Positions 1,721-7,265 of a stretch of DNA of 64,000 nt are shown here, piece after piece. The stretch comes from Treponema sp. (GTDB taxonomy: Bacteria; Spirochaetota; Spirochaetia; Treponematales; Breznakiellaceae). The stretch's first letter is position 1. The number at the start of each line of letters is the position of its first letter. The notes under the pieces are model-generated. The model made no database searches. It was not told the DNA's origin and worked only from the letters and a program-made list of their open reading frames with translations. The position numbers and the translations under genes are program-made. The stretch lies in NCBI GenBank assembly GCA_031276295.1, contig JAISNI010000052.1:17566-81565 (forward strand), written 5' to 3'.

Positions 1721-2937
1721 AATGCGGCGTGTGCGGAAAGCGCGTTACCGGCGCCCAAACTGCTATCTGTGAAGTCTGCGGCACGGCCGTTTTACCCGCA
1801 CCCTTACTATCGGAAGCGGATATCAAGCAATACCAGCGGACCTGCGCAATAGGTAAAGCCGCATGGGAGCACGTGTTACGCCTGCGGGAAGAGGCTGAAA
1901 AGCTGGCCCTGGATATTGAAAACATGAAAGGTGTCTCTAAACGGCTGACGCAGGAAGTCATAGAGAAGAAAACAGAAGCCGAGCGGCTGATAAAGGACGC
2001 TGAAGACAGGAAGGCGGCATCCGAACATTTGAAAAAGGAAATTAACAGCAGGAAAGATGAATACGCCGATTTGGAGCAGAAAATTAAACAGGCACAACAG
2101 GAGCTTTCTACTCTACGAGCACAGGTAAAAGAAGAAAGCAAAAGAAAGCTCGCGGCACCGCAGGCCGCGCCCACACAACAGCCGCCGGTTAATTTTGTGT
2201 ATGTGGAGGGCGGGACATTTTCCATGGGGAGCACTAACGGGGACGATGATGAGAAGCCCGTGCATACGGTAACGGTGAAGGGCTTTTACATGAGCAAGTA
2301 CGAGGTAACGCAGAAGGAATGGGCGGAGGTGATGGGGAATAATCCCAGCTACTTTAAGGGTGATAATCTGCCGGTGGAGAACGTAAGCTGGTACGATGCG
2401 ATAGAGTACTGCAACCGGCGGAGCGTAAATGAAGGGTTGACGCCCGCGTACACGATGGACAAAACGCGCGGCGATCCAAACAACCGGAGTCAATATGATA
2501 CAGTAAAGTGGGTGGTAACATGGAACCGCGGGGCGAACGGGTACCGGTTGCCGACCGAGGCGGAATGGGAGTACGCGGCCAAGGGAGGGTGCAAGGACTA
2601 CCCTGTGTATGAGTACAGCGGGAGCAACAATGTGGCTAGTGTCGGCTGGTATTACGGGACCAGCGGGGGGAGTACGCATCCGGTGGGGACCAAGACGCCG
2701 AACAGCCTGGGGTTGTACGATATGAGCGGGAACGTGTGGGAATGGTGCTGGGACTGGTATGGCGATTATACCGGCGGCGCCCAGACTGATCCAGTGGGCG
2801 CGTCCTCGGGTTCGTACCGCCTTCTTCGCGGCGGTAGCTGGGACTACACCGCGCAGTACGCGCGTTCTGCCGGCCGGAACTGCGACGCCCCGTCTTATCG
2901 GTACGACCTTCTGGGCTTCCGGCTCGTGCGCCCTTAG
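1717..2937 (+). CDS. Zinc-ribbon + coiled-coil + FGE-sulfatase/C-type-lectin-fold protein, possible DGR target
   Basis: N-term MKCGVCG...CEVCG. Coiled coil. Then 'VNFVYVEGGTFSMGS...YEVTQKEWAEVMG...YRLPTEAEWEYAAKGG...NVWEWCWDWY...LLRGGSWDYTAQYARSAGRNCDAPSYRYDLLGFRLVRP', typical of the FGE-sulfatase family. Confidence 0.85.
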   Translation: MKCGVCGKRVTGAQTAICEVCGTAVLPAPLLSEADIKQYQRTCAIGKAAWEHVLRLREEAEKLALDIENMKGVSKRLTQEVIEKKTEAERLIKDAEDRKAASEHLKKEINSRKDEYADLEQKIKQAQQELSTLRAQVKEESKRKLAAPQAAPTQQPPVNFVYVEGGTFSMGSTNGDDDEKPVHTVTVKGFYMSKYEVTQKEWAEVMGNNPSYFKGDNLPVENVSWYDAIEYCNRRSVNEGLTPAYTMDKTRGDPNNRSQYDTVKWVVTWNRGANGYRLPTEAEWEYAAKGGCKDYPVYEYSGSNNVASVGWYYGTSGGSTHPVGTKTPNSLGLYDMSGNVWEWCWDWYGDYTGGAQTDPVGASSGSYRLLRGGSWDYTAQYARSAGRNCDAPSYRYDLLGFRLVRP

Positions 2938-3156: not shown

Positions 3157-4674
3157 CTAAAAAATATCTGTTTTAGCAAATCCAACTTCGATGCTGTTCT
3201 GGTCATTATCGTAAATATGCAACTCCAAAATTCCGTCCTGCAAAAGCCTGAATTCAGCGGCAAAGGAACGCTTTGTTGTCTCAATGCCGTCTACGGGAGT
3301 TACGGGAACTTCAACACCAAACATCGGCTCGCGCCCGTTAAAAGGCGTCCAATCAACGCCCTTGGGCTCATCCGTCTCATAAACATCAAAATGAATGGCT
3401 GTTTGCGTTTTATGAAGTGGCACATAATATTTCCGTGCACTGATATATTTTCCGTTGTCATGAATCTCCATTTCAGAATCCCGAAATAATATATTGCTAA
3501 TTTGGTTTGTATCATCATCCCGTTTGTGACTATCAACCCCGTAAGTATGAGTCGCTGTAGAAACCAGCCAATCGAACGTCGCATAAATCGCGGCCCCAAA
3601 AGCAATCGCCCGTTCGGGCTTGTCCAGCACTATCTCCTTATTGGGAAACTCCTGCCTGAGTCTGTTTATTACCTGCGGCATTTTACTGGCTCCACCAACC
3701 AACACTATCGTGTTTATGTTCGATTCATTTTCCCCGGTTCCTTCTTTATAACGGGCGATCACATCTTTAACCACGCTGACTGTCATATCAAGCAAATAAC
3801 GGGTCATGTGCTCAAACTGCTGCCTGGAAATTTTAAGTCTATATGAATCTTCGCCACTGTCGGGGAAAAAGCCCCGCTTGACTTCATCCTCTGTGGAAAG
3901 CATGTGCTTAATCTGAATAATCTCTCTCTCGAATTGCTCCTCATCTATACTGCCTTGAAGCCGTATATCATTCTCCCGGATAAAATAATCCCGTAATACC
4001 TTATCCCAGTCTGTCCCCCCGACTTTTGTATCCCCGCTTTGAATACGGGTTTTAAATTTCTGCGGTAGCGCCGTGTCATAGCGGACAATAGCGGTGTCGA
4101 AGGTACCACCCCCTAAATCGTAAGTCAGTATCGTCGTTCCATTGTTAATATTTTGATGTGTGGAAAAATAACTTAACGCGGCGGCAACCGGTTCATCAAT
4201 GATCTTAACTGATGTACGGGACAGGCCGGATGCTTCACAGGCGGCTTCCAGAATTGTCTGCCGGTATATATTGGAACCCGACATCGCCGGGACGGCTATT
4301 ACTATGTTTTCAAGTTTAGGGGAAATTGGTATATCAGTAGCCTTCTGCTGCGCAAGCTCAATAATATGCCTGATGATCTTGACGATAATTTCTTTCGCTG
4401 AAAATTTACGTCCGTCAAGGTTGTAAATAATTTTGGAAATAGGCTTCCCACTGCGCATCTCTTTCTTGATATATTTAACACCGTAAGACGGATGCGCTTG
4501 ACACCGTCTCTTGGCCTCAACACCTGTCCTTTCTCCGATTTCCGCCTCATAATAAAAAATCGAAGGAATCCCGTCCCGGTAGTCATCATCATTTGATAAA
4601 AGCGATTCAGGCGCATTGCCGCGTACCGCCGCCGGAAAAGAAAAACATGTGCCAAAGTCAATCCCAAGCTTCAT
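3157..4674 (-). CDS. Hsp70/DnaK-like ATPase
   Basis: Start at MKLGIDFGTCFS (phosphate-1 loop), 'TILTYDLGGGTFDTAIV' (phosphate-2), 'IVLVGGASKMPQV' (adenosine motif). Confidence 0.9.
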   Translation of the reverse strand: MKLGIDFGTCFSFPAAVRGNAPESLLSNDDDYRDGIPSIFYYEAEIGERTGVEAKRRCQAHPSYGVKYIKKEMRSGKPISKIIYNLDGRKFSAKEIIVKIIRHIIELAQQKATDIPISPKLENIVIAVPAMSGSNIYRQTILEAACEASGLSRTSVKIIDEPVAAALSYFSTHQNINNGTTILTYDLGGGTFDTAIVRYDTALPQKFKTRIQSGDTKVGGTDWDKVLRDYFIRENDIRLQGSIDEEQFEREIIQIKHMLSTEDEVKRGFFPDSGEDSYRLKISRQQFEHMTRYLLDMTVSVVKDVIARYKEGTGENESNINTIVLVGGASKMPQVINRLRQEFPNKEIVLDKPERAIAFGAAIYATFDWLVSTATHTYGVDSHKRDDDTNQISNILFRDSEMEIHDNGKYISARKYYVPLHKTQTAIHFDVYETDEPKGVDWTPFNGREPMFGVEVPVTPVDGIETTKRSFAAEFRLLQDGILELHIYDNDQNSIEVGFAKTDIF

Positions 4675-6292
4675 AATTGTGTCCTTTTTGCTGCCGGCTT
4701 TCTGCCTTTTCCAGGAGTCGAACGACCGCCTGTTTAATAACAATACCGTCTGCCTTATACCCTTCGGATACAAGTTCTTTTATAACATTTGTTGTAGAAG
4801 ATGATGAATTATCTACATGATCTTCATCGGGGTTATATGTATCGCCGCTTTGTGGGCGGACCGGCGTAAAGCCCCATTGTTTTATAAAATCGTCGATTTT
4901 GAGTATGATTGATTCCCACACACTGGAAAGTTTATTTAATTCTTTTTTTCTTTCTTCCGGTATTTTCGGCAAAAGCAACTGTTTTTCAATTTCAATTGAT
5001 TGTTTTCCAGCAATTTTTTTAAGGCTGATACAAAAATCAATAAGAAATTTTAAATTATCTTTATTTTTATTCCGGTACTTTACTAATTCCTCCTGTTCTC
5101 TGCGTGAACTATCAAGGGCTGTCTTGTTTTGTCTCAATTCTGCATCGAGCTTGTCTATCTGTTCCTGTAAACGCACATTCTCTGAAGATAAGACTTCATA
5201 GGTATTCTTGGCATCAGCAAGCTGGCTCTGTAAATGACTATTAGTCCAATTTAATGTACTATTGGTATGCTGAACGTCAGCAAGCTGAATCCGTAAATCA
5301 TTATTAGTCCGATTTAATGTACTATTAGTACAGTTGGTTTCATCAAGCACTGTTTGCATATCCTGAACTTGTTGTTGTAAGTCCTGGCAGCGTTTAACTA
5401 GTTTATTATACTCATTTTGCTGTAAATCAAATTCAGCCTTATTTATTTCGGCTTTCGCGGCCGGCTGTGGCTCCAAAGTTGACTGATCACTTGTTGTATT
5501 TACCGATGAGCTACGTTTGTCTTTGTTATCTTCAATAGGCTTGTTAAAAACATCAAGTGTTTCTTTAGTAGGAATTCCGATAATACAAGTAATGTCCTCT
5601 CTAACTTGGATACTTCCGATTCTCGGCGATGTACTAAAATTATACATAGGATCCGAATCTGTAGGGTTATAAGAAATTCTGTCATTATCATTTAACCTTA
5701 TCCATACACCCCCTTCTTGTTGGTGGCATAAAACTTTTTTCCCATAGTAAGAAAGGTTTCCATATAACTGCTGATTTGAAGAACCGCGCAGTCCTTTCCC
5801 GTCATCTCTCTTAGCCTGGTAGTCGCCGTCAATCCAATAATCAAGACAATTCCAAAAATCATGGAACTCATTTACATCTGTATTATAGGTGTCGGGATGA
5901 TAATAACCGCGTATTGGTTCTATATCAGCCCCCCATGAGTAACCTGTATAGAGTAATACGTTAATATTTGGATTTCTCTTTTTTACTTTTCCCATAATAT
6001 AGTACAATTCTTTCCACTGTAAAACTGGTTCGCCGCCGCTGATTGTTATACCGTCTATATTCTTCGAGCCAATAATTTCAGCAATGATGTCATCACATGG
6101 AACAAGATTGCCTCCGTCTTTCGGCTGGGCATTCGGAGCCAGGCAGCCTTCGCAGCGTTTATTACAGCCCTGTACCCAGATACCATAACGGCGGCCTGGT
6201 CCCAGATTTGTTATACCATTGCAGATAAAATGCAGCCTGAGCGTTTTTTCCCGTTTATAAGTGAGAATTTCATTGATTTCCTTACCTTCCAT
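4658..6292 (-). CDS. Radical SAM (NrdG-like activating enzyme) fused to a long coiled-coil C-terminus
   Basis: 'YGIWVQGCNKRCEGCLAPNAQ' (CxxxCxxC cluster motif) and 'GITISGGEPVLQW'. C-terminal half is heptad-rich. Overlaps the Hsp70 start. Confidence 0.8.
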   Translation of the reverse strand: MEGKEINEILTYKREKTLRLHFICNGITNLGPGRRYGIWVQGCNKRCEGCLAPNAQPKDGGNLVPCDDIIAEIIGSKNIDGITISGGEPVLQWKELYYIMGKVKKRNPNINVLLYTGYSWGADIEPIRGYYHPDTYNTDVNEFHDFWNCLDYWIDGDYQAKRDDGKGLRGSSNQQLYGNLSYYGKKVLCHQQEGGVWIRLNDNDRISYNPTDSDPMYNFSTSPRIGSIQVREDITCIIGIPTKETLDVFNKPIEDNKDKRSSSVNTTSDQSTLEPQPAAKAEINKAEFDLQQNEYNKLVKRCQDLQQQVQDMQTVLDETNCTNSTLNRTNNDLRIQLADVQHTNSTLNWTNSHLQSQLADAKNTYEVLSSENVRLQEQIDKLDAELRQNKTALDSSRREQEELVKYRNKNKDNLKFLIDFCISLKKIAGKQSIEIEKQLLLPKIPEERKKELNKLSSVWESIILKIDDFIKQWGFTPVRPQSGDTYNPDEDHVDNSSSSTTNVIKELVSEGYKADGIVIKQAVVRLLEKAESRQQKGHNYEAWD

Positions 6293-6304
6293 TAGACACC
6301 TCTT

Positions 6305-6889
6305 TCATTTATCATTCCAGTTTTCCGCAATATCCAAAGTTACTGATTTAATGTTCCTAATCGTTTCAGCATCCAGATTACAGTCAGAAAAAGCATGGGC
6401 TTTAATTTTTTTTATTCTATCAGGGATTCCTTTTATTGAACATAACTTTATACATTGAAAAAAAGCATAGTTGCCGATTGTACCAAGGCGCGATTTTCCT
6501 TCAATAAATACCTGTTCCAACTCTCGGCACGCCCAAAACGCCCCGTTATTATCCTCATCCTTGCTCTCATCCGGGTTATTGCCGATAAACTCAACGGAAG
6601 AGGGTATCAATACTTTTTTTATCCGGCTGCGCGCAAAACAATGGCCGGCAATCACACGGATATTCCCCGGCACAACGGCAATCTCTGAGTTGCCCTTATA
6701 CTTTACTATAACATCCCCATCTATCTCAAATTGGGCAGGATCAAACAGTTTTTGCCGGAATTGATTGAGTTTCTGTTTGTATTGCTCTATATCGAATTCA
6801 GAAATCAAAGGGAATTGTAAGACTGAATTACCACAAAATTCACAGGTATCGCTATTTTCAGTATTAATACCGCAGACACCGCATTTCAT
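6305..6889 (-). CDS. Zinc-ribbon + LRR_5 (BspA-like) domain protein
   Basis: MKCGVCGINTENSDTCEFCGNSVLQFPLISEFDIEQY, followed by LRR_5-like 'IRVIAGHCFARSRIKKVLIPSSVEFIG...LGTIGNYAFFQCIKLCSI'. Confidence 0.7.
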   Translation of the reverse strand: MKCGVCGINTENSDTCEFCGNSVLQFPLISEFDIEQYKQKLNQFRQKLFDPAQFEIDGDVIVKYKGNSEIAVVPGNIRVIAGHCFARSRIKKVLIPSSVEFIGNNPDESKDEDNNGAFWACRELEQVFIEGKSRLGTIGNYAFFQCIKLCSIKGIPDRIKKIKAHAFSDCNLDAETIRNIKSVTLDIAENWNDK

Positions 6890-7265
6890 TGTAATCACCT
6901 CATTTAGACTTCGTTTTATAGAGTAATACCAAGAATACTAACGATAGATTATTGACAAGAAACCAAAAAGCGTCAACTTGGTAGGGGAAGCGGCTTGAAC
7001 CTCTTCCCCTGCCTTCCTGTTCGTATCTTCCGCCTTTTGGGCATTTTGTGTCAATCCCCCGTTGCATATTGGGTATTTGTACTATTCTTTCGGGGCTAGT
7101 ATCCGGACACTAATGAAACGGTGAATTGATTTTTTCTTATTTCCTTTTTGCCCGCCCTCGCAATGTTACGCATTGCTTTATAAGGGACGGTCAACGTCAT
7201 ATCCGGCCAGAACGTTATATGCAATGCGCCCTAAATTGCTTCCGATCAACCCGCTGTCTCCGTAC

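Follow-up and report, generated by a model that had tools for sequence, protein, structure and literature searches.

What does an NrdG-like activase do in a setting that contains no NrdD? NrdD is the ancestral kind of partner for NrdG-like activases. In a 64,000-nucleotide stretch of DNA from Treponema sp. (contig JAISNI010000052.1 of assembly GCA_031276295.1; this whole stretch is called the window below), an intact gene encodes an NrdG-like radical SAM domain joined to a long coiled coil, and nrdD was not found near this fusion gene. A preliminary description had proposed that the activase was redeployed to a different substrate. The genome examined comprises 3.38 Mb in 247 contigs and is 83% complete. 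The features of the window considered here are as follows.

1-825, (+) strand: 3' part of Hsp70-A, operon A (full gene, L008:16810-18390)
836-1720, (+) strand: helical/coiled-coil protein downstream of Hsp70-A (open reading frame, gene order)
1717-2937, (+) strand: zinc-ribbon, coiled-coil, FGE-sulfatase-domain protein of operon A (FGE-sulfatase, 190.2 bits)
2816-2937, (+) strand: variable part of the FGE domain, comprising the final 122 bases of the gene (adenine-biased variation among copies)
3157-4674, (-) strand: Hsp70-B, 505 aa (Pfam HSP70, 146.4 bits; aligned with Hsp70s of other sets)
4658-6292, (-) strand: radical SAM-coil-GrpE-like fusion gene (intact open reading frame, ATG start, 544 aa)
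Residues 1 to about 245 of the fusion protein, (-) strand: NrdG-like radical SAM domain (Pfam Fer4_12, tree)
6143-6166, (-) strand: cluster motif CNKRCEGC, residues 43-50 of the fusion protein (C43, C47, C50)
6026-6037, (-) strand: GGEP motif of the fusion protein (G86-G87-E88-P89)
About residues 277-439 of the fusion protein, (-) strand: predicted coiled coil
4718-5197, (-) strand: GrpE-like stretch, residues 366-525 (Pfam PF01025)
6305-6889, (-) strand: zinc-ribbon/LRR protein (LRR_5, 56.7 bits; N-terminal CxxC pairs)

Two paralogous operons abut in the window

Operon B lies on the (-) strand in the order zinc-ribbon/LRR gene (6889-6305), fusion gene (6292-4658) and Hsp70-B (4674-3157), in agreement with the neighbours named in the preliminary description. 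The zinc-ribbon/LRR gene, for which an alternative GTG start is possible at 6898, precedes the fusion gene at a distance of 12 bases, and the first 17 bases of Hsp70-B are at the same time the last of the fusion gene. A paralogous operon A on the (+) strand, which begins 6.5 kb ahead of the window, abuts operon B. It encodes a radical SAM enzyme, a coiled-coil protein, an AAA+/trypsin protein, Hsp70-A, the helical protein (836-1720) and the zinc-ribbon/FGE protein (1717-2937), in this order; the start codon of the last gene was inferred from an ATGA overlap with the preceding one. The radical SAM enzyme of operon A (279 aa) shares 49% identity with the fusion enzyme, and the AAA+ protein (1116 aa) is a tandem CbbX/SpoVK protein with a trypsin domain. 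By gene order, the helical protein has counterparts in loci L014, L016 and L017. It was considered as another GrpE and rejected, as no GrpE match was obtained.

The radical SAM domain belongs to a clade separate from NrdG

All radical SAM motifs (CX3CX2C, GGEP and RGSxNQ) are present in the fusion protein, which matched Pfam Fer4_12 with 91.9 bits (cutoff, 22), so that its earlier assignment as an NrdG-like radical SAM domain, made on the cluster and GGEP motifs, stands. Its best NCBIfam model was NrdG (TIGR02491) at 77.1 bits, below the cutoff of 126.1, and the paralogue in operon A, at 94.8 bits, was also under this cutoff. PflA is the top solved-structure match of the fusion enzyme in both sequence and fold, and a PFL-activating enzyme was recovered when an AlphaFold model of the N-terminal half was searched with Foldseek. 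The score against the PflA model, however, was weak (45 bits; cutoff, 232), and a glycyl-radical partner such as that of PflA was not detected in the gene set. The epimerase EpeE was also among the fold neighbours of this domain.

A tree was constructed from 43 sequences, including 14 NrdGs, among them that of the genome itself, and 28 relatives of the fusion enzyme. Two sequences obtained in the Bacillota search (G870 and G1125) lie beside nrdD and are true NrdGs; they were counted in the NrdG group. All 28 relatives, both copies from this genome among them, formed one clade with support of 100/99, and all 14 NrdGs fell outside it; the tight grouping with NrdG orthologues that, together with the lack of another activase for NrdD, would have refuted the preliminary description was therefore not observed. 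NrdG, the nearest group in the tree, was paraphyletic relative to the clade, consistent with the clade having arisen from NrdG-like activases. The three cluster cysteines and GGEP are kept in 28/28 members, and SxNQ is conserved as well. Unlike NrdG, clade members carry L30 (28/28) in place of N or D, have lost N52 (present in 13/14 NrdGs), and have an additional C-terminal GIP segment that is absent from 14/14 NrdGs.

The clade is patchily spread over the phylum of the window, Bacillota, Pseudomonadota and plasmids, including Rhizobium plasmids, on which it adjoins AAA+ and kinase genes. In an even sample of the window's phylum, 3/393 genomes carried a member, the present genome included, compared with 6/399 in the sample of the Thiocapsa phylum and about 10/399 in that of the Oscillospiraceae phylum after two true NrdGs were taken out. 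A single-sequence scan of the viral collection found no clade member, and an alignment scan of it gave mostly NrdG-scoring loci with one clear set member, L106.

The genome's NrdD has its own activase

The sole nrdD of the genome is located at G000:C176:2884-4839 with a canonical nrdG beside it (C176:2399-2806), and a PFL-like enzyme with its own activase is encoded on contig C220. Could the fusion protein be a spare NrdG for this NrdD? It has the superfamily and motifs of NrdG, and NrdG is its top NCBIfam model. However, it belongs to a separate clade with a score under the NrdG cutoff, NrdD already has its own NrdG, and NrdD was undetectable in 9 of the 20 clade-bearing genomes, several of which may be incomplete drafts. 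We rejected this explanation, and consider it extremely improbable.

The preliminary description had also suggested a search for a glycyl-radical motif in operon-linked proteins. Matches to R[VIL]xG[YFWH] in the partner proteins of the set were scattered and shared no position, and a glycyl-radical partner inside the operons was rejected on this basis. Among the proteins scanned, the glycyl-radical motif was present only in NrdD and the PFL-like enzyme. The separate clade, the genome's own nrdD-nrdG pair, the clade genomes without nrdD and the absence of a recurring glycyl-radical motif together provide good support for the fusion enzyme being part of an activase branch redeployed away from NrdD. 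Redeployment, as previously proposed, is thus well supported; the different substrate of that proposal is putative.

The fusion protein ends in a GrpE-like region

The C-terminal half had been described as coiled coil. The predicted coil does account for part of it, but the protein also ends in a GrpE-like match that overlaps the coil. Residues 366-544 matched Pfam GrpE with 26.2 bits (cutoff, 25.8); the score of the whole 544-aa protein was 21.1 bits, under the cutoff, and that of the last 105 residues alone was 20.1 bits. The match disappeared in 5/5 Pfam controls of the C-terminus (one reversed sequence, two with the post-coil part alone shuffled and two in which the last 105 residues were shuffled). 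In a genome-wide GrpE search, the fusion protein ranked third with 24.8 bits, and the next protein scored 12.6. The two higher-ranked proteins were the canonical GrpE beside dnaK/dnaJ (contig C140) and a second GrpE on contig C162. The latter belongs to a second, dedicated GrpE-Hsp70-DnaJ/TPR gene group (L084:9328-13492, G000:C162), present besides the canonical group.

The C-terminal GrpE pattern was visible when the fusion C-terminus was aligned with GrpEs, and a two-sequence local GrpE profile gave a weak score of 7.1 bits versus 6.6 for the top of 2000 shuffles. AlphaFold models of the C-terminus, built from one to five sequences and of low confidence, contained helices only and did not confirm a GrpE fold with its beta wing; Foldseek with these models returned no GrpE among its matches, and a single-sequence search of solved structures did not recover GrpE. 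From its sequence pattern, we consider the C-terminus quite probably a GrpE-like domain. Like GrpE, it has an Hsp70 gene alongside; it differs in the attached radical SAM domain and long coil. This GrpE-like C-terminus would tie the fusion enzyme to the adjacent Hsp70-B. The radical SAM-GrpE fusion was met only once, and other clade members carry separate genes. We know of no earlier fusion of a radical SAM enzyme with an Hsp70 exchange factor.

The clade is the constant member of a recurrent gene set

Neighbours of the clade were counted from open reading frame calls and home-made profiles, and zinc ribbons by a simple motif scan that misses some of them and has no genome-wide background. Beside the enzyme, a core of AAA+ proteins that have their N-domain in common, coiled-coil proteins and N-terminal zinc-ribbon proteins was found, together with Hsp70, kinase/FHA/PP2C or TerD. 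Type 1 sets consist of Hsp70, a helical protein, the radical SAM enzyme, a coiled-coil protein, a CbbX-type AAA+ protein and zinc-ribbon proteins with varying payloads (FGE, LRR, RCC1 and Sel1); they occur in this genome, L017 and Thiocapsa (L016), and in part in L014. In type 2 sets, a ClpB-type AAA+ gene adjoins the radical SAM gene (19 loci, 16 of them with a kinase), and several of these loci also encode zinc-ribbon/FHA and PP2C proteins. AAA+ proteins of the CbbX type were found beside the enzyme in 4 loci. The N-domains of both AAA+ types align (hhalign probability, 96.7), and zinc-ribbon proteins recur near the clade irrespective of AAA+ type or payload. In a third setting, the IMG/VR contig L106, the enzyme is accompanied by a P-type ATPase and several TerD-type genes. 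No typical set neighbour was recognised in L044 and L020, and NrdG control loci, several of them covered by 2.5 kb flanks only, contained no AAA+, Hsp70 or kinase.

Some loci have further neighbours, several of which are linked to defence. Type III-A CRISPR genes are present in L063 and L065 (L063-L065 are close relatives and represent one case), a piece of cas1 in L057 and a dCTP deaminase gene in L020. In the type 2 sets of rhizobial and Caballeronia replicons (L019, L018, L021 and L041), a giant zinc-ribbon-kinase-helicase-nuclease protein of about 2100 aa is encoded directly 3' of the enzyme gene, and the rhizobial giant protein gave a PADLOC candidate match. L106 also encodes a three-AAA CbbX-like protein, and a P-type ATPase gene accompanies the enzyme in L015 as well as L106. 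In L017, a PqqD-type radical SAM gene (L017:2343-3959) lies amid zinc-ribbon/RCC1 genes beside the set, which suggests peptide modification nearby.

The zinc-ribbon/FGE gene has an adenine-biased variable region

The variable region of the FGE gene was compared among at least five genomic copies (window 2816-2937 and L087-L091). Among five genomic copies, A was one of the alleles in 32/42 variable columns, and it occupied 2/80 invariant columns of the region versus 14/57 upstream (p = 9e-5). The gene ends in an invariant G+C-rich tail at its 3' end. As read from these aligned copies, such adenine-biased variation with an invariant tail is characteristic of the targets of diversity-generating retroelements. 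A template repeat was not found in the 83% complete assembly. Related reverse-transcriptase genes, each with a small conserved gene ahead, are present on contigs C177 (L098) and C187 (L097), and that on C177 adjoins phage-tail-like genes; these are perhaps prophage retroelements, and neither locus contained a match to the FGE variable region. The sequence following the FGE stop codon (2938-2993) is a dispersed repeat of about 85% identity, also found behind other FGE genes and on C135.

Proposed function and comparison with known systems

In the reading that we favour, though tentatively, the enzyme may be a radical maturase that is coupled to chaperone and AAA+ proteins, acts on zinc-ribbon proteins and serves in responding to stress or in defence. 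Since the cluster and GGEP motifs are kept, cleavage of SAM is expected, which would yield a 5'-deoxyadenosyl radical. The GrpE-like domain would dock on Hsp70-B and place the radical site beside its cargo. The client would probably be an N-terminal zinc-ribbon protein, here the zinc-ribbon/LRR and zinc-ribbon/FGE proteins, which co-occur with the enzyme. NrdD has a C-terminal zinc site that has been proposed to hold the glycyl-radical loop in place (PMC5704485); its location near this loop, together with the recurring zinc ribbons, favours a zinc-ribbon client. The radical step would modify or activate this client, which the AAA+ protein, fused in operon A to a trypsin-like protease, would then remodel or cleave. 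From the genomic context, the purpose could be to respond to stress or to phage by means of diversified recognition proteins.

The proposed change of substrate may point to glycyl-radical formation, to some other modification or to sensing; the partners have no common glycyl-radical motif, so that either of the latter two could apply. That same observation, EpeE among the fold neighbours and the PqqD-type gene amid zinc-ribbon genes in L017 would suit another peptide or protein maturase, for epimerisation or crosslinking, with the zinc ribbons merely docking modules between set members. However, the closest sequences and the top fold match are glycyl-radical activases, and no small precursor-peptide gene was recognised in a non-systematic inspection; we regard this alternative as unlikely, while giving it some weight. 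Alternatively, the Fe-S cluster or SAM binding may report redox state or infection to Hsp70 or AAA+ without any substrate. Linkage to chaperones and kinase/FHA/PP2C signalling genes would agree with such a sensor, but full conservation of the catalytic motifs (28/28) suggests catalysis and makes it very doubtful. A general proteostasis or metal/oxidative stress system, in place of phage defence, would explain the Hsp70, GrpE, AAA+ and protease components and the TerD and P-type ATPase genes beside the L106 enzyme. The CRISPR, dCTP deaminase and nuclease-helicase associations, the adenine-biased variable FGE and the patchy distribution argue against it, and we consider it rather unlikely.

The gene set resembles conflict systems of the MoxR-vWA ternary and GTPase/HSP70/GrpE kinds, as described in passages of Kaur et al. 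2020 (PMC7159879). There, too, NTPases of the chaperone type occur with variable sensors or effectors, FGE domains are associated with retroelements, some GTPase systems combine HSP70 with GrpE, and one FtsH ternary subtype includes a radical SAM gene. Relative to them, the AAA+ proteins here are CbbX/SpoVK- or ClpB-like, and the radical SAM enzyme is the constant member; MoxR, vWA and TRAFAC GTPase were not found among the operon proteins with Pfam and NCBIfam, and the passages do not contain the present gene set. Nor was this set described in the open-access full-text literature searched. TerD-type tellurium/stress sets are similar in that TerD and P-type ATPase genes accompany the L106 enzyme, but this likeness is confined to one sub-branch of the clade (L015 and L106).

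More speculatively, and with little probability, the whole NrdG-like branch would act as the radical switch of an immune or stress machine guided by chaperones, turning on zinc-ribbon-tagged sensors and effectors, some of them retroelement-diversified, presented by Hsp70/GrpE or AAA+. L30 and the GIP segment provide a simple handle for finding this multi-gene set, and through the clade, reuse of NrdG-type activation to control sensors or effectors becomes testable. The fusion of a radical SAM enzyme with an Hsp70 exchange factor, if true, would provide a direct connection between a dedicated chaperone and radical chemistry.
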